Positions 7,139-54,656 of a DNA stretch of 64,000 nucleotides are shown here, in pieces. The first letter of the stretch is position 1; each line of letters starts with the position of its first letter. Location: assembly GCA_030066085.1 (NCBI GenBank), contig JASJCI010000039.1, forward strand, positions 1 to 64,000, given 5' to 3'. The notes under the pieces were generated by a model. The model searched no databases. It saw nothing but the letters and a program-made list of their open reading frames with translations, and was not told the origin of the DNA. The stretch comes from Gammaproteobacteria bacterium (GTDB lineage Bacteria; Pseudomonadota; Gammaproteobacteria; GCA-001735895). A program made the translations under genes and the position numbers.

Positions 7139-7843
7139 TCAGTGGCCGTCGTCGACCTCGCGGTTATCCTTGAAAGTCCGCCAGCCGCTGATCATCGTGC
7201 TGATCAGGCTTTGGCGCGACATGATGTCCTCGCGGATCGCGACGTACACGTGGGTAATAACGAACAACAGGATGAACCACATACCCAGGCGATGAAAGGT
7301 ATGTACGTCCTGGCTCTGTCCGAACAGCGGTATGACCCAGGAACTGAACCAGGTGTATTGCCAGCTATCCATGCCCGTGCCCTCGCCGTAGAGTGCAAGA
7401 CCGGTCACGATCATGAAAACCGTGCCCCACACCAGCATCACGTGCATCGTAATGACCGCGAGCGGGTTGTGGCCGGTGTACTTGCGCGGCTCCCTGGCAA
7501 TGAAGGCATACCACTTGATTTCGTGCCGCACCCCGTCCCAGAAATCGGGATTAGTTATCGGTGGCAGGAAGATCTGGCGCGCGTGTTCATTGCCGACGAA
7601 TGCCCAGTAGATGCGAAAGACGAAGCCGATCACGAAGATATAGCCGGCGGCAAAGTGAGCAAAACGGATGTATCCCATCAGGAAATGGTCACTGGCCTCG
7701 CCGCTTAGCGTCGGCAAAGGCGCACCGATGAAATAACCGGTCACGCACAGCACCAGCAGCGCAAATGCGTTGAACCAGTGCCACAGACGTAGCGGTGCCT
7801 CGTAGACGTAGACAGCCGGTTCGTTACGGATCGTGGTACCCAT
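7139..7843 (-). CDS. hupC: [NiFe]-hydrogenase b-type cytochrome subunit
   Basis: 234 residues with four hydrophobic helices (about 20-45, 60-85, 130-155 and 185-210). This is the Ni/Fe-hydrogenase cytochrome b family that anchors the HupSL dimer to the periplasmic face and passes electrons to quinone. The N-terminal YVYEAPLRLWHWFNAF segment with its heme-ligand histidine is characteristic, as are HFAAGYIF and RLGMWFILLFVITHVY with further heme His residues. The start is 11 bases past the hupL stop, and the operon order is hupS-hupL-hupC. Confidence 0.96.
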   Translation of the reverse strand: MGTTIRNEPAVYVYEAPLRLWHWFNAFALLVLCVTGYFIGAPLPTLSGEASDHFLMGYIRFAHFAAGYIFVIGFVFRIYWAFVGNEHARQIFLPPITNPDFWDGVRHEIKWYAFIAREPRKYTGHNPLAVITMHVMLVWGTVFMIVTGLALYGEGTGMDSWQYTWFSSWVIPLFGQSQDVHTFHRLGMWFILLFVITHVYVAIREDIMSRQSLISTMISGWRTFKDNREVDDGH

Positions 7844-7854
7844 GGCAATTCCTC

Positions 7855-9660
7855 CTACGCCCCGATCGGGCTCGTGGTTACCGTCGCCAGTTCCTCGCCG
7901 TCCTCGGACATGACATGCGTCGAACAGGCCAGGCAGGGATCGAAGCTGTGGATGCTGCGCAGGATCTCGACCGGCTCGTCCGGCACCTCGATCCTGGTGT
8001 TCATCAGCGATGCCTCGAAGGCGCCGATGTTACCGGCCTCGTCGCGCGGCGATCCGTTCCAGGTGGTCGGTACCACGCACTGGTAGTTGTCGATACGCGT
8101 GTCCTTGATCTTGATCCAGTGACCCAGCGCGCCGCGCGGCGCTTCGGTGAAGCCGACCCCCTTGGCTTCCGCGGGCCAGTCGGCCGGATCCCACATTTCG
8201 CCGCTGTGCGTGCTGCTGTCGCCGTTGTTGATGTTGGTCATCATCTTGTCGAAGAAGTAGAGCTGCATATCGGCGGCCCACTGGGCTTCCAGCGCGCGTG
8301 CGGCGGTGCGGCCGAGGGTCGAGAACAGCGCGGTGACCGGCACATCGAGAGTTTTCAGCACCAGGTTGATCTGCTCGGTGATGACTTCGTGGCCCTGGGC
8401 GTAGCCGATGATGTAACGCGCCAGCGGGCCGACTTCCATCGCGTTGCCGCGCCAGCGCGGCGCCTTGATCCACGAGTAGCTCGCGCCCTCGTCGAGTTCC
8501 TCGATGTTTTGCGGGCTGCCCTTGGCGCTGTCGACGTTGAAATCGGGATCGGTCACGCCGTCCCAGGGGTGCAGGCCCTTGACCCCGTCCGGGTACTTGT
8601 ACCAGGAGTGGGGCACAAATTCCTGCACCTGTTCGGGGTCGGTGAGATCGATTTCATGCACCACGGACAGGTCGCCGTTGATGATCGCGCCGCGCGGCAT
8701 CATCAGGTTGGCCGCGGAGTAGTCGTTGGCCTTGTCCGGGATATCGCCGTAGGACATGACGTTCTGACTCGACAGGCCGCCGCCGTAGAGCCAGCCCTTG
8801 TAGAACTGGCCGATGGCGAGAATGTCGGGGATCAGCACGTTGTCGATGAAGGTCTTGGTGTCCTGCAGGATCTGGTGAACCTGGTTGAGATTCACCTTGT
8901 TGAGTGCACCAACCGCGCCGGTATCGCTGAGATTGATCGGGCAGGGCACACCACCGACGGTCCAGTTGGGATGCGTGTCCTTGCCGCCGAAGATCGTGCG
9001 CGTCTTCATGATTTCCTTCTGGAAATCGAGCGCCTCGAGATAATGTGTCACCGCCATCAGGTCGGCTTCCGGCGGCAGCAGGTAGGCCGGGTTGGTCCAG
9101 TAACCGTTGCGGAACGGACCGAGCTGGCCGGATTCGACAAACTTTTTCAGTCGATTCTGGATGTCGCGGAAATAACCCGGTGAAGATTTCGGGTGATTCG
9201 GCGATACCTGCATCTGCAGCGCCGACGTCGCCCTCGGATCGGCCTTGAGCGCGTTGACCGGGTTGACCCAGTCGAGTGCATGCAGGTGGTAGAAATGCAC
9301 GAGGTGATCGTGCACCTGCAGCGACAGCTGCATGATGTTGCGAATCGAGTTGGCGTTTTCCGGGATATTGATACCGAGTGCGTCCTCGACCGCGCGCACC
9401 GAGGTCAGCGCGTGCGTGCCGGTGCAGACGCCGCAGATGCGCTGCACGAAGGCCCAGGCATCGCGCGGATCGCGACCTTTGAGGATGACTTCGAGACCGC
9501 GCCAGATCGTGCCGCTGGAGACCGCGTTGGTGATCACGTTGTTCGAGTCGATGTTGACCTCGGCGCGCATGTGACCCTCGATCCGGGTGACCGGATCGAC
9601 GACGATGCGCTGCCCGGACTTGTCCAGCTTGAAACCGTTGGGTGTCGTGACAGTGCTCAT
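7855..9660 (-). CDS. hupL: Uptake [NiFe]-hydrogenase large subunit
   Basis: 601 residues; it carries the Ni-Fe(CN)2CO active site that splits H2. The four nickel cysteines are present in [10 protein letters not shown] (C76, C79) and DPCLACSTH (C576, C579). A C-terminal tail of 19 residues follows H582 and is the part removed by the HupD protease after metal insertion. The N-terminal [13 protein letters not shown] signature is intact. The ATG overlaps the hupS stop by one base. It is exported together with HupS, having no signal of its own. It belongs with group 1d-type membrane-bound uptake enzymes by neighbours and by its partner subunit. Confidence 0.98.
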
Positions 9661-10745
9661 TATTCCTGGTCTCCTTTCTGTTGCGTTCTCTTAAGCGCCG
9701 ATACCGCGGCGTGCGCGGCGACCGCACCGCCGACGATGGCGGCCGCGGTGCCGCCGACCGTGTCGGCATTGGCTTCGACACCGAATTGCGGGATGTTGGT
9801 GAGGCGGTCGTAAAAGCCGCCCTTGTCCCAGAAGCCGTCCTCGGAGCAGCCGATGCAGGGGTGGCCGGACTGGATCGGGAACGACAGGCCGCCGTTCCAG
9901 CGTACCGTCGAGCAGGCGTTGTAGGTGGTCGGGCCCTTGCAGCCCATCTTGTACAGGCAGTAACCCTGGCGCGCGCCCTCGTCATCCCAGGCCTCGACGA
10001 ATTGACCGGCGTCAAAGTGGGGCCGCCGGTAGCACTTATCATGAATCCGCTGGCTGTAGAACATCTTGGGCCGTCCCTGCCGGTCGAGTTCGGGCAGACG
10101 GTCGAAGGTGACGAGATAAGTGACTACCGCGGTCATGACTTCCGCGATCGGGGGACAACCCGGTACCTTGATGATGGGTGCATTGCCGATGCCGGGCACC
10201 TTGTGAATCGGTGTTGCACCGGTCGGATTGGGCGCCGCTGCCTGAACGCAGCCCCAGGAGGCACAGGAGCCCCAGGAGATAATGGCCTTGGCGTCTTTCG
10301 CCGCCATGCGGAGCTGTTCGGTGTAGGGTCGGCCCGCAACCACGCAGGACATACCGCCGGTGACGTCCTGCTCGAGACCGGGATTACCCTCGCAGGCGAG
10401 GATGTATTCACCCTTGTGCTCGGCGATGACTTCTTCGACGATGGCTTCGGCCTGGTGACCCGCCGCCGCCATGATGACGGAGTCATAGTCGAGCGAAATC
10501 ATCGACAGGATGACATCTTTAGCCAGCGGATGACCGGAGCGGAGGAATGATTCGGAGCAACAGGTGCATTCGAGACCGTGCAGCCAAAGTACCGGGATTC
10601 GGGGCTTGGTTTCCATCGCGTGGGCTATCTTGCTTGCGTACAGGGGACTCAGGCCCATCGCCGCAGCCGTCAGGCTGCAGAATTTCAGGAAACTGCGCCG
10701 GGTTATCCCCTGTCGGCGCATCACATCGTAAAAGGTTTCTTTCAT
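9660..10745 (-). CDS. hupS: Uptake [NiFe]-hydrogenase small subunit, Tat-exported, six-Cys proximal cluster
   Basis: 361 residues. A twin-arginine signal (RRSFLKF at 16-22) ends near AHA43. The mature protein begins with the proximal cluster motif [10 protein letters not shown] (C60, C62, C63), and GSCASWGC supplies two more cysteines. These correspond to Cys17/19/20 and 115/120 of oxygen-tolerant enzymes such as E. coli Hyd-1 and Ralstonia HoxK. The medial and distal cluster motifs ([30 protein letters not shown]) follow. A C-terminal hydrophobic helix (about 335-355) anchors the enzyme in the membrane. A ribosome site AGGGGGAG lies upstream of the ATG, and the gene has its own sigma54-type promoter. 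Confidence 0.98.
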
Positions 10746-28745: not shown

Positions 28746-29519
28746 CTAGTCGGCCAGGAGGTCGATGTTGACCGTCAGGTTCGCCGGCATCTCTTCGTCG
28801 ACGTCGAACGCAACCCCGAGCTCCAGTGCTGGATGGTTGTTGCCCCCGACGATGACGCGGCGCCCGACTTCGACCACGCGACCGGTGAAAGTGCGTTCAC
28901 CGTAGCGGACCTGCGCTTGCTGTCCTATGACGATCTTGCCACTTAACTCGAGCGGTAACAAGGCGCGCGCCAACATCGGCCGATCGGCCCCCAGCCTGAT
29001 CAGCACCGGGTCGCCGTTCAGCGTATTGACATACTGGCCGACAAACGCGTCGATTGCGAGTACGGTGGCATCCGCCGGGGCACGCAGTTCGGCCTGCGAC
29101 TTGCGGTGCTGTGCCTTGGTCATTTCCGCGCGCGCGGCGGCAAGACGCGCCTCCGCGATCGCGTAATCCTGTTCGGCCCGCTGCAATTCGACCATCGCCA
29201 GCGAATCGCGGTCGAACAGCTCCTGCGCCTTTTCCAGCTCGGTCGCCATTTCCTGGCGCACCGGTTCGAGCGCGGCGATGCGGGCTTCGGCGAGGGCCAC
29301 GTCAGCGTCTAACAGGGTAGCGTCGAGGCGCAGCAGGATATCACCGGCGTTGACTCGCTGGCCGGGCGAAACCTCGATCGCGACCACGCGCGCGCTGATG
29401 CTGCTGGTCAGGTCGAGCTGCTGCCTGAACTCGGTCTTGCCGGTGAGCTCGACCGCGCCAGCGGCGGCGGCGAAAAAAAACAGCAACGATGCAAGGCACA
29501 AACGCATATGGGTCCCCAC
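28746..29519 (-). CDS. Periplasmic adaptor (HlyD/RND membrane-fusion) protein
   Basis: 257 residues with a Sec signal peptide (ending about AAGAVE, residue 23). It has a split lipoyl/barrel-sandwich part (ARVVAIEVSPGQRVNAGDILLRLD and ELRAPADATVLAIDAFVGQYV) around an alpha-hairpin of about 60 residues with coiled-coil pattern. It is shorter than most RND adaptors. It starts at the stop of the TolC gene (29520), so the two are co-expressed. It would bridge an inner-membrane pump and TolC; no pump gene is adjacent. The RND pair at 36006 is one possible partner. Confidence 0.85.
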   Translation of the reverse strand: MGTHMRLCLASLLFFFAAAAGAVELTGKTEFRQQLDLTSSISARVVAIEVSPGQRVNAGDILLRLDATLLDADVALAEARIAALEPVRQEMATELEKAQELFDRDSLAMVELQRAEQDYAIAEARLAAARAEMTKAQHRKSQAELRAPADATVLAIDAFVGQYVNTLNGDPVLIRLGADRPMLARALLPLELSGKIVIGQQAQVRYGERTFTGRVVEVGRRVIVGGNNHPALELGVAFDVDEEMPANLTVNIDLLAD

Positions 29520-30821
29520 TTACTGGCTCGGCAAGGTCTCGAGAAATTCGTCGCCGACCAGCCGTGCCAGCCGACGCCAGGCGAGTTCGAAGGCATAGAT
29601 GGCACGCAGGCGTGCGGCACTGGTGCGGGAAAACTCGATCATCGAGTCGCCGAGATCGGATTTGAATTCGAGTTCGTATTCGGCCCTGCTGCGATCGAGG
29701 TAACGATCGCGATACTCACGCTCTATTTCGAGGCCCTCGATAGTCAGCTGCAGGTGCTGCAGCTCCTGCCACAGTTCGAGGATTTCGATTTGCAGCTGGA
29801 TCCGGGCCGAGGATTGACGGGCGAGGGCTTCGCGATAGCCCGCGGCGGCGCGGTCGACACGCGCCGGGGCGGACGCCGAGTACAGCGGGATATCGAAATA
29901 AATACCCGCGCGCCAGTCATCACGGGTGCTGGTTTCGCGCGAATAGCTCGACAGTTCCAGCTCGAGCCCGATGCTGCCATTGTCCTCCGCTTCGGCGATG
30001 CCGATGGCCGCCTGTGCCGCGCGTGCGCGGATTTCGCTCGCGCGTGCTTCGAGGCTGTGCTGCAGCGCGCGCCCCACCAGGACATCGACGTCGTCGGGGA
30101 TGATACGCTGCAGCTCGATGGGCGGCGCCACCAGGTCCGAGGGTAAAGCCTCGGGGTAGCCCATCGCCGCGGCCAGCCGCGCCCGGGTCAGGCGCTGCCG
30201 CTGCTCGGCCCGATAACGCTGCTGGCGGATGCGCTCGTACTCGGTTTGCAGGCGCAGCACGTCGATTTCGGCGACCAGCCCGAGTGCAAAATCCTGCTGC
30301 GCGTTGTCATAGCGAATGAAACCGATCGCGAGCGCTTCGTTTTCGGCCAGGAAGTGGTTATCGGCGTTGAGCACGTCGAAATAGCGCCGCGCGATTTCGA
30401 CGCGGCGCAGCTCCACCCTGAGTGCCAGCTCGGTCTCCAGGGCCTGCTGCTGCAGCGCAAGCGCGCGCTCGCGTGAATCCTGGCCACCGAAATCGTACAG
30501 CGGCCGCGACAGGATCAGGCTGGCGGCGTTGTCGTCGAGCGAGTCGTCGTCGGTAACGACGGCATCCGACGGCCCGACCTCGCGTATGCGGGCTTCGAAG
30601 TCGAGGCTGAAACCGTAGTCGCCATCGGTGATGCCCTGTTCGGCTCGCAGCGCCTGCAGGCGGTGCCCGAGTTCGAGTAATTCGGGGTGCTCCGGGTTGT
30701 TCGCGGTCGCCAGTGCGGCCGGCAGCGTCAGGGGCTCTGGCAGCGGATTCGCCGCGACCGTCGCGGCCGCGAACAGCAGCAGGGCGGCGCATACCCGGCA
30801 ATGAATCGGTGCTGTCGGCAT
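29520..30821 (-). CDS. TolC-family outer-membrane efflux protein
   Basis: 433 residues from the ATG at 30821, which gives a proper signal peptide (hydrophobic CAALLLFAAATVAANP). An in-frame ATG at 30860 would add 13 basic residues. The body is two repeated helical bundles with TolC features (YDFGGQDSRERALALQQQ, FDIPLYSASAPARVDRAAAGYREA). It should form the outer-membrane tunnel for the adaptor encoded directly downstream. Confidence 0.87.
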   Translation of the reverse strand: MPTAPIHCRVCAALLLFAAATVAANPLPEPLTLPAALATANNPEHPELLELGHRLQALRAEQGITDGDYGFSLDFEARIREVGPSDAVVTDDDSLDDNAASLILSRPLYDFGGQDSRERALALQQQALETELALRVELRRVEIARRYFDVLNADNHFLAENEALAIGFIRYDNAQQDFALGLVAEIDVLRLQTEYERIRQQRYRAEQRQRLTRARLAAAMGYPEALPSDLVAPPIELQRIIPDDVDVLVGRALQHSLEARASEIRARAAQAAIGIAEAEDNGSIGLELELSSYSRETSTRDDWRAGIYFDIPLYSASAPARVDRAAAGYREALARQSSARIQLQIEILELWQELQHLQLTIEGLEIEREYRDRYLDRSRAEYELEFKSDLGDSMIEFSRTSAARLRAIYAFELAWRRLARLVGDEFLETLPSQ

Positions 30822-30870
30822 CGTCGTTGAATACCTCCGGTAAGCGCGGATCGAGCGCAAACCCGGACGC

Positions 30871-31425
30871 TCAGAGCGCCCCGTTTTTCTTCATTTTCTT
30901 GTAGCGCGTGAAGCGGATGTTACGCCCGCTGTCGTCTTTTTGCAGGTAGATTTCCTCGGCGATGTATTCGCCCATCCACAGGAATTCGTCGACCCCCGCA
31001 GTTGCGCCGACATACTTGAATATGCGTTCGCCATCGAGGTCGAAAAACGCCATCAGCGGGGTTGCCCGCACGCGCTGGCCGCGGGCAAATTCCTTCTGGG
31101 TCGTGTCTTCGCCGGTGAAATCGACGATTTCGACGTCACCCTCGATATCGATGGTCAGCGAGTGGAAGTGCTGCTTGAAATAAGCCTGGACCTCGGGCTG
31201 GCTCAGCACGGCCTGTTTCATGCGGTGACAAAAAGGGCACTCGTCCATTTCGAAGAAAACGAACAGTGCGCGCTTGCCTTCCTCGCGCGCAATCTCGAGT
31301 TCCTCGGTCAAGTCACCCAGGCTTTGCTCGAAGAAGAAGCGATAAGGGTCGCGGGGCGCCGCCGACTGCGCGGTGAGCGGCAACAGGCAGAGCAGTAAAA
31401 CGAAAACGGGAAGCCTGGCTATCAT
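30871..31425 (-). CDS. SoxW-like periplasmic thioredoxin
   Basis: 184 residues with a signal peptide (about 1-21). It has a thioredoxin fold with the active site MDECPFCHRMK (about 57-67) and the cis-Pro segment VRATPLMAFFD. SoxW-type thioredoxins reduce disulfides or bound sulfane sulfur in the periplasm of sulfur oxidisers. The tail (150-184) is basic. It lies between the TolC gene and the Met-Asn-Pro repeat gene, all leftward. Confidence 0.87.
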   Translation of the reverse strand: MIARLPVFVLLLCLLPLTAQSAAPRDPYRFFFEQSLGDLTEELEIAREEGKRALFVFFEMDECPFCHRMKQAVLSQPEVQAYFKQHFHSLTIDIEGDVEIVDFTGEDTTQKEFARGQRVRATPLMAFFDLDGERIFKYVGATAGVDEFLWMGEYIAEEIYLQKDDSGRNIRFTRYKKMKKNGAL

Positions 31426-31512: not shown

Positions 31513-32127
31513 TTACTGCTGCGCAGGTGCCTGCGGCTGGGTTTGCGGCATCATCATGCCGGTCCACGCGTTGGGGTCGAACCAGTTGAAGCCCGTACCG
31601 CTGCCGTACGGCATGCTGGCAGTGCTGGCACCGCCGGGAACGTAGGCGTTCGGATTCATCCAGGCCATGTAGGTATTCGGGTCCATGAAAACCTGGTAGC
31701 TGGCCGGATTCATCGGCTGCATGTAGATGCCCGGGTTCATGAACTGCATGTACGCCATCGGGTTCATCATGTTCATGTAAGTGGCCGGGTTCATGTAAGC
31801 GCTGTAAGCCGCCGGATTCATCCACGCCATCATGTTGTTCGGGTCAGCGAACTGCATGTAGAACTGTGGCGTCATGAACTGGCCGTAGGTCGCCGGGTTC
31901 ATGAACTGCGGATAGTTCATCGGGTTCATGAAAACGGTGTAGCCCTCGGGCCGCGCCAGGTTCATGCGCTGTACGTTGGGCTGTGAATTCATGACACCCA
32001 TCCATGAAAACGGGTTCATCATATCGGTCGGCTGCGCCGTACCGGTGGCGGGTGCGTCCGCCGCGTAGGCCTGGCCGCCCACCAGGGCGAGGCCGAGAGC
32101 CAGGGTTGCTGCAATTTTCTTGATCAT
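31513..32127 (-). CDS. Secreted Met-rich protein with eleven 9-residue MNPxxY repeats
   Basis: 204 residues from the ATG at 32127, preceded by a GGGGGATCC ribosome site. Residues 1-22 are a Sec signal peptide ending AYA. Residues 66-164 are eleven in-register 9-residue units of the pattern (F/W/Y)-M-N-P-x-x-Y-x-x (for example FMNPATYGQ, WMNPAAYSA, FMNPGIYMQ). They contain about 20 methionines and a Pro in every unit. Degenerate units (MNPFSWMGV, FDPNAWTGM) flank the array. There are no cysteines. I recognise no family; regular Met spacing could bind Cu(I) or form a solenoid, both inferred. A TATTAG-N6-CTAATA palindrome lies 33 bases upstream. Confidence 0.85.
   Translation of the reverse strand: MIKKIAATLALGLALVGGQAYAADAPATGTAQPTDMMNPFSWMGVMNSQPNVQRMNLARPEGYTVFMNPMNYPQFMNPATYGQFMTPQFYMQFADPNNMMAWMNPAAYSAYMNPATYMNMMNPMAYMQFMNPGIYMQPMNPASYQVFMDPNTYMAWMNPNAYVPGGASTASMPYGSGTGFNWFDPNAWTGMMMPQTQPQAPAQQ
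31636..31932 (-). repeat. 27-bp coding repeat array (11 units)
   Basis: DNA encoding the eleven MNPxxY units. Unit length is 27 bases without slippage across the array. Codons for the conserved M-N-P (ATGAACCCG/ATGAACCCC) are nearly constant, while the other positions vary. Confidence 0.85.
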
Positions 32128-32302: not shown

Positions 32303-32953
32303 ATGAAAGCAATAATCGACAAACCATACGGCCTGTTGCTGCTGTTTTGCCTGCTGCTCGGTATCGAGACCTTCGCGCTCATGCTGCTGCTGCAAAACGG
32401 CCTGCTGCAAACGCTGCTGGCCGAGGACTACAGCTTCGTATCGCGCGCCATCCTGGTGATATACGCTCTCGCCAGCCTGCACGTGCTGCTGTCGGCCTAC
32501 CGGATTTCGCTCGAGATTCACGATCTCGCGACTTTCGCGGAGCGCGCCGCGCGCGGACGCCACGTAGTGCGCTATTTCCGCCAGCTGCGCGAACCCGACG
32601 GTGCCGACGAGCCGGGCGAGCTGCTGATCGACGTGCTCGACGGTCGCTGCCGTGGACAGTTCCGCCTGGGTTACGTGGTAGCCGACCTGATGCTCAAGCT
32701 CGGACTGCTCGGTACCGTGATCGGGTTCATCTTCATGCTCGGCTCGCTGGTCGATTTACAGAGTATCGATATTACCGTGATGCAAAAACTGCTCGGGCAG
32801 ATGAGCGGGGGCATGAAGGTCGCGCTGTTTACCACCCTGGCCGGTATGAGTTGCGGGGTATTACTCAATATAAAGTACCAGCTGCTCGACTGGAGCGTGG
32901 ACGGGTTGCTCGACGACGTGCGCGAGCGAACCTACGAGGCGCGCGGCGGATGA
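32303..32953 (+). CDS. MotA/TolQ/ExbB-like proton-channel protein
   Basis: 216 residues from the ATG at 32303 (an ATG six codons earlier is also possible). Membrane helices lie at about 8-30, 45-62, 122-150 and 165-190. The last two carry the family pattern LKLGLLGTVIGFIFMLGSL and MKVALFTTLAGMSCGVLLN. Such proteins form the stator pore that uses proton flow to move a partner. Its stop overlaps the next gene by four bases, and that gene encodes a single-helix partner. Confidence 0.85.
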   Translation: MKAIIDKPYGLLLLFCLLLGIETFALMLLLQNGLLQTLLAEDYSFVSRAILVIYALASLHVLLSAYRISLEIHDLATFAERAARGRHVVRYFRQLREPDGADEPGELLIDVLDGRCRGQFRLGYVVADLMLKLGLLGTVIGFIFMLGSLVDLQSIDITVMQKLLGQMSGGMKVALFTTLAGMSCGVLLNIKYQLLDWSVDGLLDDVRERTYEARGG

Positions 32954-33591
32954 GGGTTACGCGCCATAACCATCAGACCACCGATCCGTTTACCGACCTG
33001 CTGTTCAACACGCTGCTCGGTTTTACCCTGCTGTTCTTTATTTCGATCATTTTCATGAATCCGATCGCGAAGCTCGGCAACATCAATTACAAGGCCGAGT
33101 ACATCATCACCGCGAGCTGGCCCGAGGACCAGCCCGACGATGTCGATCTCTGGGTACAGAGCCCCTACCAGGAAACCGTGTCCTACCTGCAAAAAGATGC
33201 GGGCTGGCTGCACCTCGATCGCGACGATCGCGGCGATCTCAACGACACGGTGACGATCAACGGGCGTGAAATGGTGCATTCGATCAACCAGGAAGTGGTA
33301 ACGATACGCGGCATCATCTCCGGTGAATACGTGGTCAACCTGCATTATTACGAGTCCAAGAGCGAGCAACCCGTACGCGTCAATCTCAAGATCGAAAAGG
33401 TCAATCCGACGCTGCGCCTGGTGTTTATCGACCAGCTCGTGCTGAACGCGGTCGACGACGAAGTCACCGCGTTGCGTTTCGAGCTCGACGGCAACGGTGA
33501 CTGGATCGGCATGAACCGCATCGACAAGGTGCTGACGCCCTATCGCCTCGATCCGGAGCAGCTGAACCCCGGCTCGGAGTCGGGCCAATGA
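32950..33591 (+). CDS. Single-helix membrane protein with periplasmic YfaP-like domain (ExbD-position partner)
   Basis: 213 residues. An N-terminal cytoplasmic segment with DPFTDLLFNTLLGFTLLF leads into one membrane helix (about 15-38). The Asp next to the helix is placed as in ExbD/TolR. The remaining 170 residues are periplasmic; DVDLWVQSP, LHLDRDDRGD and the GEYVVNLHYYE stretch resemble DUF2135/YfaP beta-sandwich domains. No TolR/ExbD peptidoglycan or TonB domain is seen. It is coupled to the MotA-like gene and the unknown gene downstream. Confidence 0.75.
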   Translation: MRVTRHNHQTTDPFTDLLFNTLLGFTLLFFISIIFMNPIAKLGNINYKAEYIITASWPEDQPDDVDLWVQSPYQETVSYLQKDAGWLHLDRDDRGDLNDTVTINGREMVHSINQEVVTIRGIISGEYVVNLHYYESKSEQPVRVNLKIEKVNPTLRLVFIDQLVLNAVDDEVTALRFELDGNGDWIGMNRIDKVLTPYRLDPEQLNPGSESGQ

Positions 33592-34097: not shown

Positions 34098-35909
34098 TCA
34101 GGCGTCGCCCGCGGCGCGCAACAGGATGAAACTGCCGTAAAAGTAGGGCGCATCCAGCATTTCGCGCGTGGCCCGGGTTAGCATCTGTTCGGCGTCGCGG
34201 CGCACCTCCTGGTCCAGCCCGCGCAGGTTCAGCGCGGTTTCCAGCCACAGCGACATCGGCGAGTAAAACACCAGGTCGGGCATGATCCACTTGCCGGCCG
34301 CGACCGGGATCAGCGGCTGCGCCTTGGGTTGCCAGCGGCCGTTGCGCAGAAAACGGGCGTGAGCGCGCTCGACCAGTCGCGCGGCAAGCTGGCGTGCGTC
34401 GGTGTCGTCGAAATGTCGACCGTAAAAATCGAAAGCCCTGGCCAGTTGGGCATAATCCTCGAATACCGCGGCCGCAACCTCGGCGTTGCCGGCAAAACGG
34501 ATCAGCTCGCCGTCGCGATAAAACAGCCTCTGCAGGTCCCGGTACAGGATTTGTGCGCGGCGCTCGAAACGCTCGTCGAAACTGCTGGCACGCGTCAGTG
34601 CTTCCAGCAGCATCGCGTTCCAGCTGGCCAGGCGCTTGTCGTCGGCCGGCATCGTTGCATCGCGCAATTTGAGCTTTTGCCGGATCCGCTGGTTGCGCTC
34701 GGGCTCGCCGTCGGCGAACGCCCCGATCAGCGGTCCAGCGAGAAACTCGCCGCTGGCGGGATTCAGCTGCCAGAGTTTTTCGACGTAGGCAAAATCGTCG
34801 GCGCCGAGCAGTTCGGCGAGTTGCGCGCGCTGCCACCAGTAGGCGCCACCCTCGCGGTCGTCGCGGTCGACCGCCGACAGGCTCGACATGTAGCCGCCGT
34901 CGGGATGTTTCAGGTTGTCCTCGACGAAGTCCAGCGTGCGCAGTGCCAGCGCGCCGTAGCCCGCATCGGGCCACAGCTGCGCAGCCCGCAGGTACAGCGA
35001 TGACAACTGCGCGTTGTCATAGAGCATCTTTTCGAAGTGCGGTGTCTGCCAGTCGGGATCGGTGGTATAGCGAAAGAAACCGTCGTTGACGTGATCGGCA
35101 AGGTTGCGCGTGGCCATCGCCTGCAGCGTCAGGCGGACGAAATCGGCCACGTCCGCATCGAGCCCGGGATCGCGCCTTACCGCCTCGAGCAGGCTGCCGA
35201 GCTGGGGTACGTTCGGAAACTTGCTGGTATCGCCGAAGCCGCCGAGCATTTCGTCGGCTGCCAGCATGGCCTGCGCAACGAAGGCATCGACGAGTTTGGC
35301 GGACGGGATCTGCGGTGCGTTGTAAGCCTCGTTGCCGTCGTCGGCCATCTGTTCCTCGAAGAAGCGTTGCGCGGCGGCGGCGAGTTGTGCGTGATTGGCT
35401 TGCCATTCCTGCTGCAGCTGGTCGAGCACGTCGGCAAAGCCATCGCGCGGCAGGTAGGTGAAACCGGTGATCGGGTATCCCTGCGGGGTCAGGAATACGT
35501 TCAGCGGCCAGCCGGCCGAGCCCCGGATGGCTTCGACGAAGCCGACCAGGCGCTGGTCCAGGTCGGGCTCGAGTTCGCGATCGATCTTGACCGAAATGAA
35601 GTGCTCGTTGAGCAGTTTCGCCACCGCGTCATCCTGGTAACTCTCGCGCTGCATCACGTGGCACCAGTGGCAGGAAAAGTAGCCGATGGAAACGAATACC
35701 AGCCGGTTGTCGGCACGCGCATCGCGAAACACGTCTTCGCGCCAGTCGCGCCAGGCGACCGGGTCGCCGGCATGCTGCGCGAGGTACGGCGAGGGGTGAC
35801 CATCGAGTTGATTGGCCGCCAGCGCCGCGCTGGACCAGCCGAACAGGAACAACAGCAGCGGCAGGCAGGCTGAACGAAGACGCCGGAGCGAGTGTGATGT
35901 CGACAACAT
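34098..35909 (-). CDS. DUF255/YyaL-type protein with thioredoxin-like domain, exported
   Basis: 603 residues. Unlike the usual cytoplasmic family members it starts with a signal peptide (LLLFLFGWSSAALAA, ending near residue 32). The N-terminal thioredoxin-like domain has SPYLAQHAGDPVAW and YFSCHWCHVMQRESY (about 79-93), then an (alpha/alpha)6-barrel follows (GLGGFGDTSKFPNVP-like, HFEKMLYDNAQLSSLYL, SWNAMLLEAL). The function of the family is unsettled. It is divergent from the RND adaptor across a TATTAG-N6-CTAATA palindrome. Confidence 0.9.
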   Translation of the reverse strand: MLSTSHSLRRLRSACLPLLLFLFGWSSAALAANQLDGHPSPYLAQHAGDPVAWRDWREDVFRDARADNRLVFVSIGYFSCHWCHVMQRESYQDDAVAKLLNEHFISVKIDRELEPDLDQRLVGFVEAIRGSAGWPLNVFLTPQGYPITGFTYLPRDGFADVLDQLQQEWQANHAQLAAAAQRFFEEQMADDGNEAYNAPQIPSAKLVDAFVAQAMLAADEMLGGFGDTSKFPNVPQLGSLLEAVRRDPGLDADVADFVRLTLQAMATRNLADHVNDGFFRYTTDPDWQTPHFEKMLYDNAQLSSLYLRAAQLWPDAGYGALALRTLDFVEDNLKHPDGGYMSSLSAVDRDDREGGAYWWQRAQLAELLGADDFAYVEKLWQLNPASGEFLAGPLIGAFADGEPERNQRIRQKLKLRDATMPADDKRLASWNAMLLEALTRASSFDERFERRAQILYRDLQRLFYRDGELIRFAGNAEVAAAVFEDYAQLARAFDFYGRHFDDTDARQLAARLVERAHARFLRNGRWQPKAQPLIPVAAGKWIMPDLVFYSPMSLWLETALNLRGLDQEVRRDAEQMLTRATREMLDAPYFYGSFILLRAAGDA

Positions 35910-52892: not shown

Positions 52893-54656
52893 ATGTACCT
52901 GAATCGTCGAGAATTTATTCGTTTGATGGGCCTGGCCGGTGCGGCCGGGATCTTGCCGGCAACTGCCATGAGCGCGGACCAGGACCACTCGAAGCTCTAC
53001 GACATGCCGGCCTTCGGTAATGCCCGCATCCTGCATTTTACCGATTGCCATGCCCAGCTGAACCCGATTTATTTTCGCGAGCCCAGCGTCAATCTCGGGG
53101 TCGGCGAGGCGCTCGGCAAGGCACCTCATCTCGTGGGTGAGAGACTGCTGAGCCAGTTCGGTATCGCCGGCGGCGGCATCGAGTCACACGCCTACACCTA
53201 CCTCAATTTCGAGGAAGCCGCGCGCACCTACGGCAAGGTTGGTGGCTTTGCCCACCTGGCCACGCTGGTCCAGAAGATGCGGACAGAGTACGCGCAGGGC
53301 CGCTCGCTGCTGCTCGACGGTGGTGATACCTGGCAAGGTTCCGGCACGGCTTACTGGACCCGCGGGCGCGACATGGTCGAAGCCTGCAACCGGCTGGGGG
53401 TCGATGTCATGACCGGGCACTGGGAATTTACCTACCTGGCCGCGGAAGTACTGGACAACGCCGAGTTCTTTGCCGGCGAATTCGTCAGCCAGAACTGCAA
53501 GGTCAAGGAAGACGCCCTGTTCGATTACGAGCTGGCCGACATCGGCGACTTCAACGAGGACACCGGCCACGTGTTCAAGCCCTACAGCATGCGCGAGATG
53601 GGTGACCTGCGCATCGCGGTCGTGGGCCAGTCTTTTCCGTACACGCCGATTGCCAACCCGCAGCGCTTCATTCCCGACTGGACTTTCGGTATCGACGAAG
53701 AGGGTATGCAGGAAGTCGTGGACATGGCGCGCGACGAGGAAAAGCCGGATGCGGTCATCGTTATTTCGCACAACGGCATGGACGTCGATCTGAAAATGGC
53801 CTCGCGCGTCAGCGGCATCGACGCGATCTTCGGCGGCCACACGCACGACGGCGTACCCGGCGCGATCCCGGTGTCCAACCCGGGCGGCAAGACGCTGGTA
53901 ACCAACGCGGGTTCCAACGGCAAGTTCCTGGGCGTCATGGACATGGATATCCGTGGCAAGAAGCTGCGCGACTTTCGTTACCGCCTGCTGCCGGTATTTT
54001 CCAACCTGTTGCCGGCGGACGGCGAGATGCAGGACTTCATCGACGGTATGCGTAAACCCTACGTACAGCAACTGACCGAGGAGCTCGCCGTGGCCGACGA
54101 ACTGCTGTTTCGTCGCGGTAATTTCAACGGTACCTTCGACCAGGTCATCTGCGATGCGCTGCGTATCGAGGGTGATGCGCAGGTTTCGCTGTCACCCGGA
54201 TTTCGCTGGGGCACCACGGTGCTGGGAGGACAGGCGATCACGATGGAACACGTGATGGACCAGACCTGTATCACCTATCCCGAAACCTACGTCAACGAGA
54301 TGAATGGCGAAACCATCAAGCTGATTCTCGAGGACGTCGCCGACAACCTGTTCAACAAGGACCCCTATTACCAGCAGGGTGGCGACATGGTGCGTGTCGG
54401 CGGCCTGGACTACGTGATGGATCCGATGGCCGGTGCCGGTGAGCGCATCTCCGGTATGCAGCTCGACGACGGTACACCCATCGAGGCATCGAAGATTTAC
54501 AAGGTAGCCGGCTGGGCAACGGTAGGCTCACAATCGCCGGGAGCGCCGATCTGGGAGGTCGTGGCGGACTACCTGCGGCGGGTCAAGGTTGCGCGGATCG
54601 ACAAACTGAATACGCCGAAACTGAAAAACGTCGACGGTAACCCCGGAATTGCCTGA
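52893..54656 (+). CDS. soxB: Thiosulfohydrolase SoxB
   Basis: 587 residues. A twin-arginine signal NRREFIRLMGLAGAAG starts the protein. The two-domain 5'-nucleotidase-like fold has the dimanganese motifs HFTDCHAQLNPIYFREPSVN, LLDGGDTWQGSG, and GHWEFTY, the SoxB variant of the GNHE site, then VISHNGMDVD and GGHTHDGVPG. SoxB hydrolyses sulfate from the SoxYZ-bound intermediate in the periplasm. No other sox genes lie nearby in this window. Confidence 0.97.
   Translation: MYLNRREFIRLMGLAGAAGILPATAMSADQDHSKLYDMPAFGNARILHFTDCHAQLNPIYFREPSVNLGVGEALGKAPHLVGERLLSQFGIAGGGIESHAYTYLNFEEAARTYGKVGGFAHLATLVQKMRTEYAQGRSLLLDGGDTWQGSGTAYWTRGRDMVEACNRLGVDVMTGHWEFTYLAAEVLDNAEFFAGEFVSQNCKVKEDALFDYELADIGDFNEDTGHVFKPYSMREMGDLRIAVVGQSFPYTPIANPQRFIPDWTFGIDEEGMQEVVDMARDEEKPDAVIVISHNGMDVDLKMASRVSGIDAIFGGHTHDGVPGAIPVSNPGGKTLVTNAGSNGKFLGVMDMDIRGKKLRDFRYRLLPVFSNLLPADGEMQDFIDGMRKPYVQQLTEELAVADELLFRRGNFNGTFDQVICDALRIEGDAQVSLSPGFRWGTTVLGGQAITMEHVMDQTCITYPETYVNEMNGETIKLILEDVADNLFNKDPYYQQGGDMVRVGGLDYVMDPMAGAGERISGMQLDDGTPIEASKIYKVAGWATVGSQSPGAPIWEVVADYLRRVKVARIDKLNTPKLKNVDGNPGIA

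Follow-up and report, generated by a model that had tools for sequence, protein, structure and literature searches.

A nine-residue MNPxxY-repeat protein family of Dsr-type sulfur-oxidising Gammaproteobacteria, with a possible role in coating periplasmic sulfur

In this study, we analysed a 64,000-nucleotide stretch of gammaproteobacterial DNA (the window) and found that a predicted exported protein built from MNPxxY repeats belongs to an undescribed small family, which is confined to Dsr-type sulfur oxidisers in the samples searched. We tentatively propose, with a probability of roughly 0.4, a structural protein of Sox/reverse-Dsr sulfur oxidation, located in the periplasm and possibly associated with the envelope, that coats or binds zero-valent sulfur. 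The direct basis of the proposal is the signal-like exported sequence, the fixed and conserved array, the restriction to dsrA-positive genomes in our samples and, in other lineages, the linkage with sox genes; that the protein sits on sulfur, forms helical turns and acts as a sulfur coat is inferred.

The gene and its repeat array

The MNPxxY gene (31513..32127, minus strand) starts with ATG at 32127, ends with a stop codon at 31513 and encodes a protein of 204 residues (P0001), as judged from the translation of the open reading frame and from orthologues. Its hydrophobic N-terminal segment (MIKKIAATLALGLALVGGQAYA-) resembles a signal sequence when read by eye and is retained in homologues; hence, we assign a putative Sec signal peptide to residues 1-22 (32062..32127, minus strand), which supports the original prediction of export. 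The array itself comprises eleven in-register nine-residue repeats at residues 66-164 (31636..31932, minus strand) and is preceded by a degenerate unit, LARPEGYTV (residues 57-65). Position 4 of the unit is Pro in 11 of 11 repeats, whereas position 2 is Met and position 7 is Tyr in 10 of 11 each, the exception being unit 4, which has Ala and Met at these two positions, respectively. Self-identity at a lag of nine residues reached 45 matches, compared with 10.0 +/- 2.9 (maximum 22) in 20,000 shuffles of the same residues. Methionine accounts for 20 of the 99 array residues and for 29 of the 182 residues of the putative mature protein, which contains nine MxxM pairs and is devoid of Cys, His and Lys. 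Thus, the translation and the lag-9 shuffles bear out what had been read from the letters, namely a Cys-free array in perfect register with 20 Met in 99 residues, one proline per turn and an aromatic at a fixed position. Scanning for promoters and terminators at the gene, and folding the RNA of the gap 3' of it, revealed nothing.

Ten orthologous arrays gave dN/dS values of 0.014-0.037 against the window copy, with synonymous sites saturated in one of the pairs. Moreover, amino-acid identity between species is 94% for repeats that occupy corresponding positions in ten orthologues, while repeats at different positions within one gene share 48%. Given the low dN/dS (about 0.03), along with the observation that every repeat retains its individual sequence in the ten orthologues, we regard the open reading frame as a functional gene; the position-specific identity further indicates that the array is old, fixed in number and position-specific. 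A slippage-prone or young repeat, which we also considered, is ruled out by the same two percentages. Two AlphaFold runs with 8-9 sequences yielded no usable fold (mean pLDDT 40 and 47), both low-confidence models drawing roughly one short helix per repeat. The earlier idea of a regular solenoid or surface polymer is therefore retained in part: a defined structure would agree with the constant number of repeats and their position-specific conservation, but the modelling was of low confidence and settled on no fold.

Family membership and distribution

Neither Pfam nor NCBIfam holds a model for the MNPxxY protein, and a sequence search of the PDB returned nothing useful. A Pfam match to JmjN (E 0.003, below cut-off, 15 residues) is due to chance. 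A search of the literature for Met-rich proteins in connection with sulfur globules, soxB or DUF302, with most subscription journals outside its scope, found no description of the family, and tblastn against plasmids found nothing. The suspicion that no described family has this form has thus held throughout the Pfam, NCBIfam, PDB sequence and literature searches.

Orthologues are 74-85% identical within the genus and 52-58% identical over their full length outside it. A profile built from 14 sequences detected the family in 7 of 369 genomes of the class (Gammaproteobacteria), which come from six families, and gave no match in a 398-genome sample of the phylum except in the source genome. Among the nearest relatives, matches were found in 10 of 23 congeners and in one genome of another family, some of these resting only on the type of a second copy. 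This second copy lies elsewhere in the source genome, is 36-43% identical and has a Cys-bearing C-terminus; a more distant, Cys-bearing MNP type is present in several of the same genomes. In two congeners, stretches of the second-copy type (G002:C185:24007-24576 and G008:C421:10231-10782) carry one in-frame TAG, which suggests decay or a sequence error. The relatives include the Gamma 3 symbiont of Olavius algarvensis, which has been described as a sulfur oxidiser (PMC4744751).

In these samples, the distribution lies within that of reverse-Dsr sulfur oxidation. DsrA scored over its cut-off in all seven family-positive genomes of the class, as compared with 112 of 369 overall (p = 2e-4, or 7e-4 if the six families are counted as six draws). 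SoxY was found in six of the seven, an excess that is weak when taken alone (p = 0.07). Two congeners of the class sample (G003 and G010) and one family member (G177) possess dsrA and lack the MNP gene; hence, the gene is not required for the pathway. A long DUF302 protein occurs in five of the seven MNP-positive genomes vs 1 of 362 others (p = 2e-9), the long form having been defined post hoc, as the top-scoring hits, after the list was seen. SoxC over its cut-off is absent from the source genome and from five of the six other positives of the class sample, and among the 14 MNP-positive genomes tested it was found in only three (G237, G012 and G023). Absence of SoxCD has been proposed as an explanation of sulfur deposits (PMC5248467).

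Gene context

Within the source genus, the MNP gene is neighboured by thioredoxin, TolC, HlyD and ExbB genes, and sox genes are not adjacent. In the window, the next gene downstream encodes an exported thioredoxin-like protein (Thioredoxin_2, with the motif CPFC; 30871..31425), followed by a TolC-type outer membrane efflux protein (Pfam OEP; 29520..30824) and a HlyD-type periplasmic adaptor (28746..29519), all on the minus strand and assigned by Pfam. Divergent from the MNP gene, on the plus strand, are a MotA/TolQ/ExbB-type proton channel (Pfam; 32303..32953) and a membrane-anchored protein of 213 residues (32950..33591), which has no Pfam model and is syntenic. The thioredoxin and TolC genes lie downstream of the MNP gene in nine of ten distinct genus loci (the exception being L008), and the channel with the 213-residue protein is divergent from it in eight of ten. 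HlyD comes next after TolC wherever the flank is long enough, except at L024, a contig of Olavius Gamma 3, where transposase-like and mobile-element-like reading frames (7618-10575) break up the HlyD gene region. A 603-residue Thioredox_DsbH (DUF255) protein is encoded at 34098-35909 of the window and is near the MNP gene in several congeners as well. No match to the thioredoxin/TolC/HlyD/ExbB block was found in the non-genus MNP loci tested.

In three other lineages, only 1-3.5 kb separate MNP-family genes from soxB or soxYZ, and further Met-rich exported proteins are encoded next to them. G037 has two MNP genes in one group with those for SoxZ, SoxY, a long DUF302 protein and a Met-rich CxxCH protein. 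After the MNP gene of G237 come genes for a long DUF302 protein, a CxxCH protein, a transporter of the YedE type, a SoxB-like protein, a thioredoxin and TusA; a distant MNP type in SS_bin_92 is found 1 kb from SoxYZ, which were identified by sequence and not by model. YedE-type sulfur transporters accompany the clusters of MNP-type and sox genes. For G067, G110, G234 and G348, we noticed no sox gene in the parts of the MNP surroundings that were read. On the source contig, SoxB thiosulfohydrolase is encoded at 52893..54656 of the window (plus strand; NCBIfam TIGR04486, 845.7 bits against a cut-off of 550), 20.8 kb from the MNPxxY gene, a distance that is given as context and does not imply joint action. 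The sox locus of this contig contains SoxY and SoxX beside long DUF302 and CxxCH proteins, and a dsr operon (dsrA identified by model, the rest by eye) is located just past the end of the window. Thioredoxin-like genes are present both in the G237 cluster and in the sox locus of the source contig.

The Met-rich proteins of these clusters deserve a brief description. CxxCH Met-rich proteins adjoin the long DUF302 protein in G037, G237 and SS_bin_92. An exported CxxCH protein of 307 residues at L062 (3415-4338; on the source contig, C49, at about 86.9-87.8 kb) ends in an MMNPMMM / GMPGMP tail and, with 79 Met (25.7%), is richer in methionine than the MNPxxY protein. At L028 (6796-7386), a 196-residue protein with MMPQQ repeats adjoins two tandem MNP genes, and its C-terminal half looks helical and, by eye, Spy/CpxP-like.

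Possible roles and comparison with known systems

The high methionine content had originally raised the possibility that Cu(I) is bound by thioethers. A protein that buffers periplasmic Cu(I)/Ag(I), holding the metal by clustered thioethers, would suit the 29 Met and nine MxxM pairs of the putative mature protein, as well as the presence of an RND pump and adaptor 4 kb away. However, across ten non-redundant homologues Met is retained at only 59%, vs 95% for Trp, 82% for Pro, 78% for Tyr and 74% for Phe; it is replaced mostly by Ala, Leu, Thr or Ile, six Met positions are Ala in the G237 member, and the homologue alignment contains no invariant Met column. Moreover, the pump is nearer to the multidrug model (456.7 bits) than to the CusA/CzcA model (236.8 bits), neither being over its cut-off, Pfam and NCBIfam profiles of copper-protein families did not match the MNPxxY protein, and the context is one of sulfur oxidation rather than copper. 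Hence, we consider copper buffering improbable. Since Met drifts while Pro and the aromatic residues are better kept, the pattern points to a structural, hydrophobic role of the array, as far as can be judged from the sequences, rather than to a thioether metal site.

Two further explanations draw on the neighbourhood within the genus. The protein might be a secreted or surface fibre or adhesion protein whose export involves the adjacent TolC-HlyD, with the ExbB-like channel supplying energy, as the conservation of this block in most genus loci and the regular, nearly uncharged repeats would allow. We regard this as unlikely, given the Sec-type signal (seen by eye), the lack of any ABC or protease partner in view and the fact that outside the genus MNP genes are found without TolC/HlyD and, in several cases, beside sox genes. 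It is likewise rather unlikely that the protein is an accessory of Sox/thiol redox chemistry, acting as a scaffold or client of thioredoxin or as a sacrificial Met-rich oxidant sink. The secreted CPFC thioredoxin that follows the gene in the genus and the thioredoxin-like genes of the sox loci mentioned above speak for such a role, but the main MNP form has no Cys for exchange, and a role as oxidant sink gives no reason for Pro and aromatic residues to be conserved above Met.

Our preferred reading, a role similar to that of a sulfur-globule coat, is drawn from the analogy with SgpD and from the gene context. According to this proposal, the protein would be exported via Sec into the periplasm, where the Pro-punctuated, almost charge-free array may form, by folding or assembly, a series of short N-P-capped helical turns that each present a Met-rich and aromatic face, and could thereby coat or bind zero-valent sulfur deposited there. 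Several observations count against a sulfur coat: the Olavius symbiont described as storing much sulfur is gamma1, whereas the MNP family member is from gamma3 (PMC4744751); the three MNP-positive genomes named above have SoxC; some dsrA-positive relatives lack the gene; and within the genus sox genes are not among its immediate neighbours. We also entertain, as a doubtful extension, a sulfur-storage coat of a new class, in which solenoids of Met/Pro/aromatic nine-residue units, together with Met-rich CxxCH and long DUF302 partners, would form a dedicated module holding elemental sulfur or polysulfane from SoxYZ until its use by rDsr. Knowledge of how bacteria keep elemental sulfur outside the cytoplasm comes largely from a small number of Sgp proteins in purple sulfur bacteria. 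The present family, conserved and unannotated, accompanies sox genes in sulfur oxidisers, uncultured and symbiotic ones among them; its MNP protein, along with the long DUF302 and CxxCH Met-rich proteins, is therefore a candidate for the sulfur-holding step.

Among known systems, the Met-rich copper proteins (PcoC/CopC, CopA and the methionine clusters of CusA) are likewise periplasmic and Met-rich (PMC10092412), but differ from the MNPxxY protein in the profile matches, methionine conservation and gene context discussed above. The occurrence of DUF302 genes within sox operons was noted earlier (PMC5248467), and the long DUF302 form that travels with the MNP family sits in the same sox clusters; DUF302 is, however, another domain, which the MNP protein lacks. 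A further likeness, judged by description, is to the envelope proteins SgpA-D of Allochromatium vinosum, a gammaproteobacterium that oxidises sulfur by the rDsr route, and the MNPxxY protein may work in a similar manner. The Sgp proteins are exported and extremely hydrophobic; SgpD shares with the others a repetitive sequence with regularly spaced prolines, is attached to sulfur globules and is not essential (PMC10386293). The strict nine-residue Met-rich unit sets the MNPxxY protein apart from the Sgp proteins, and SgpD is reported to be almost limited to Chromatiaceae. The MNPxxY array is itself repetitive and hydrophobic with prolines at regular spacing, and all seven carriers in the class sample have dsrA, two of the features by which we judged likeness to the Sgp proteins.
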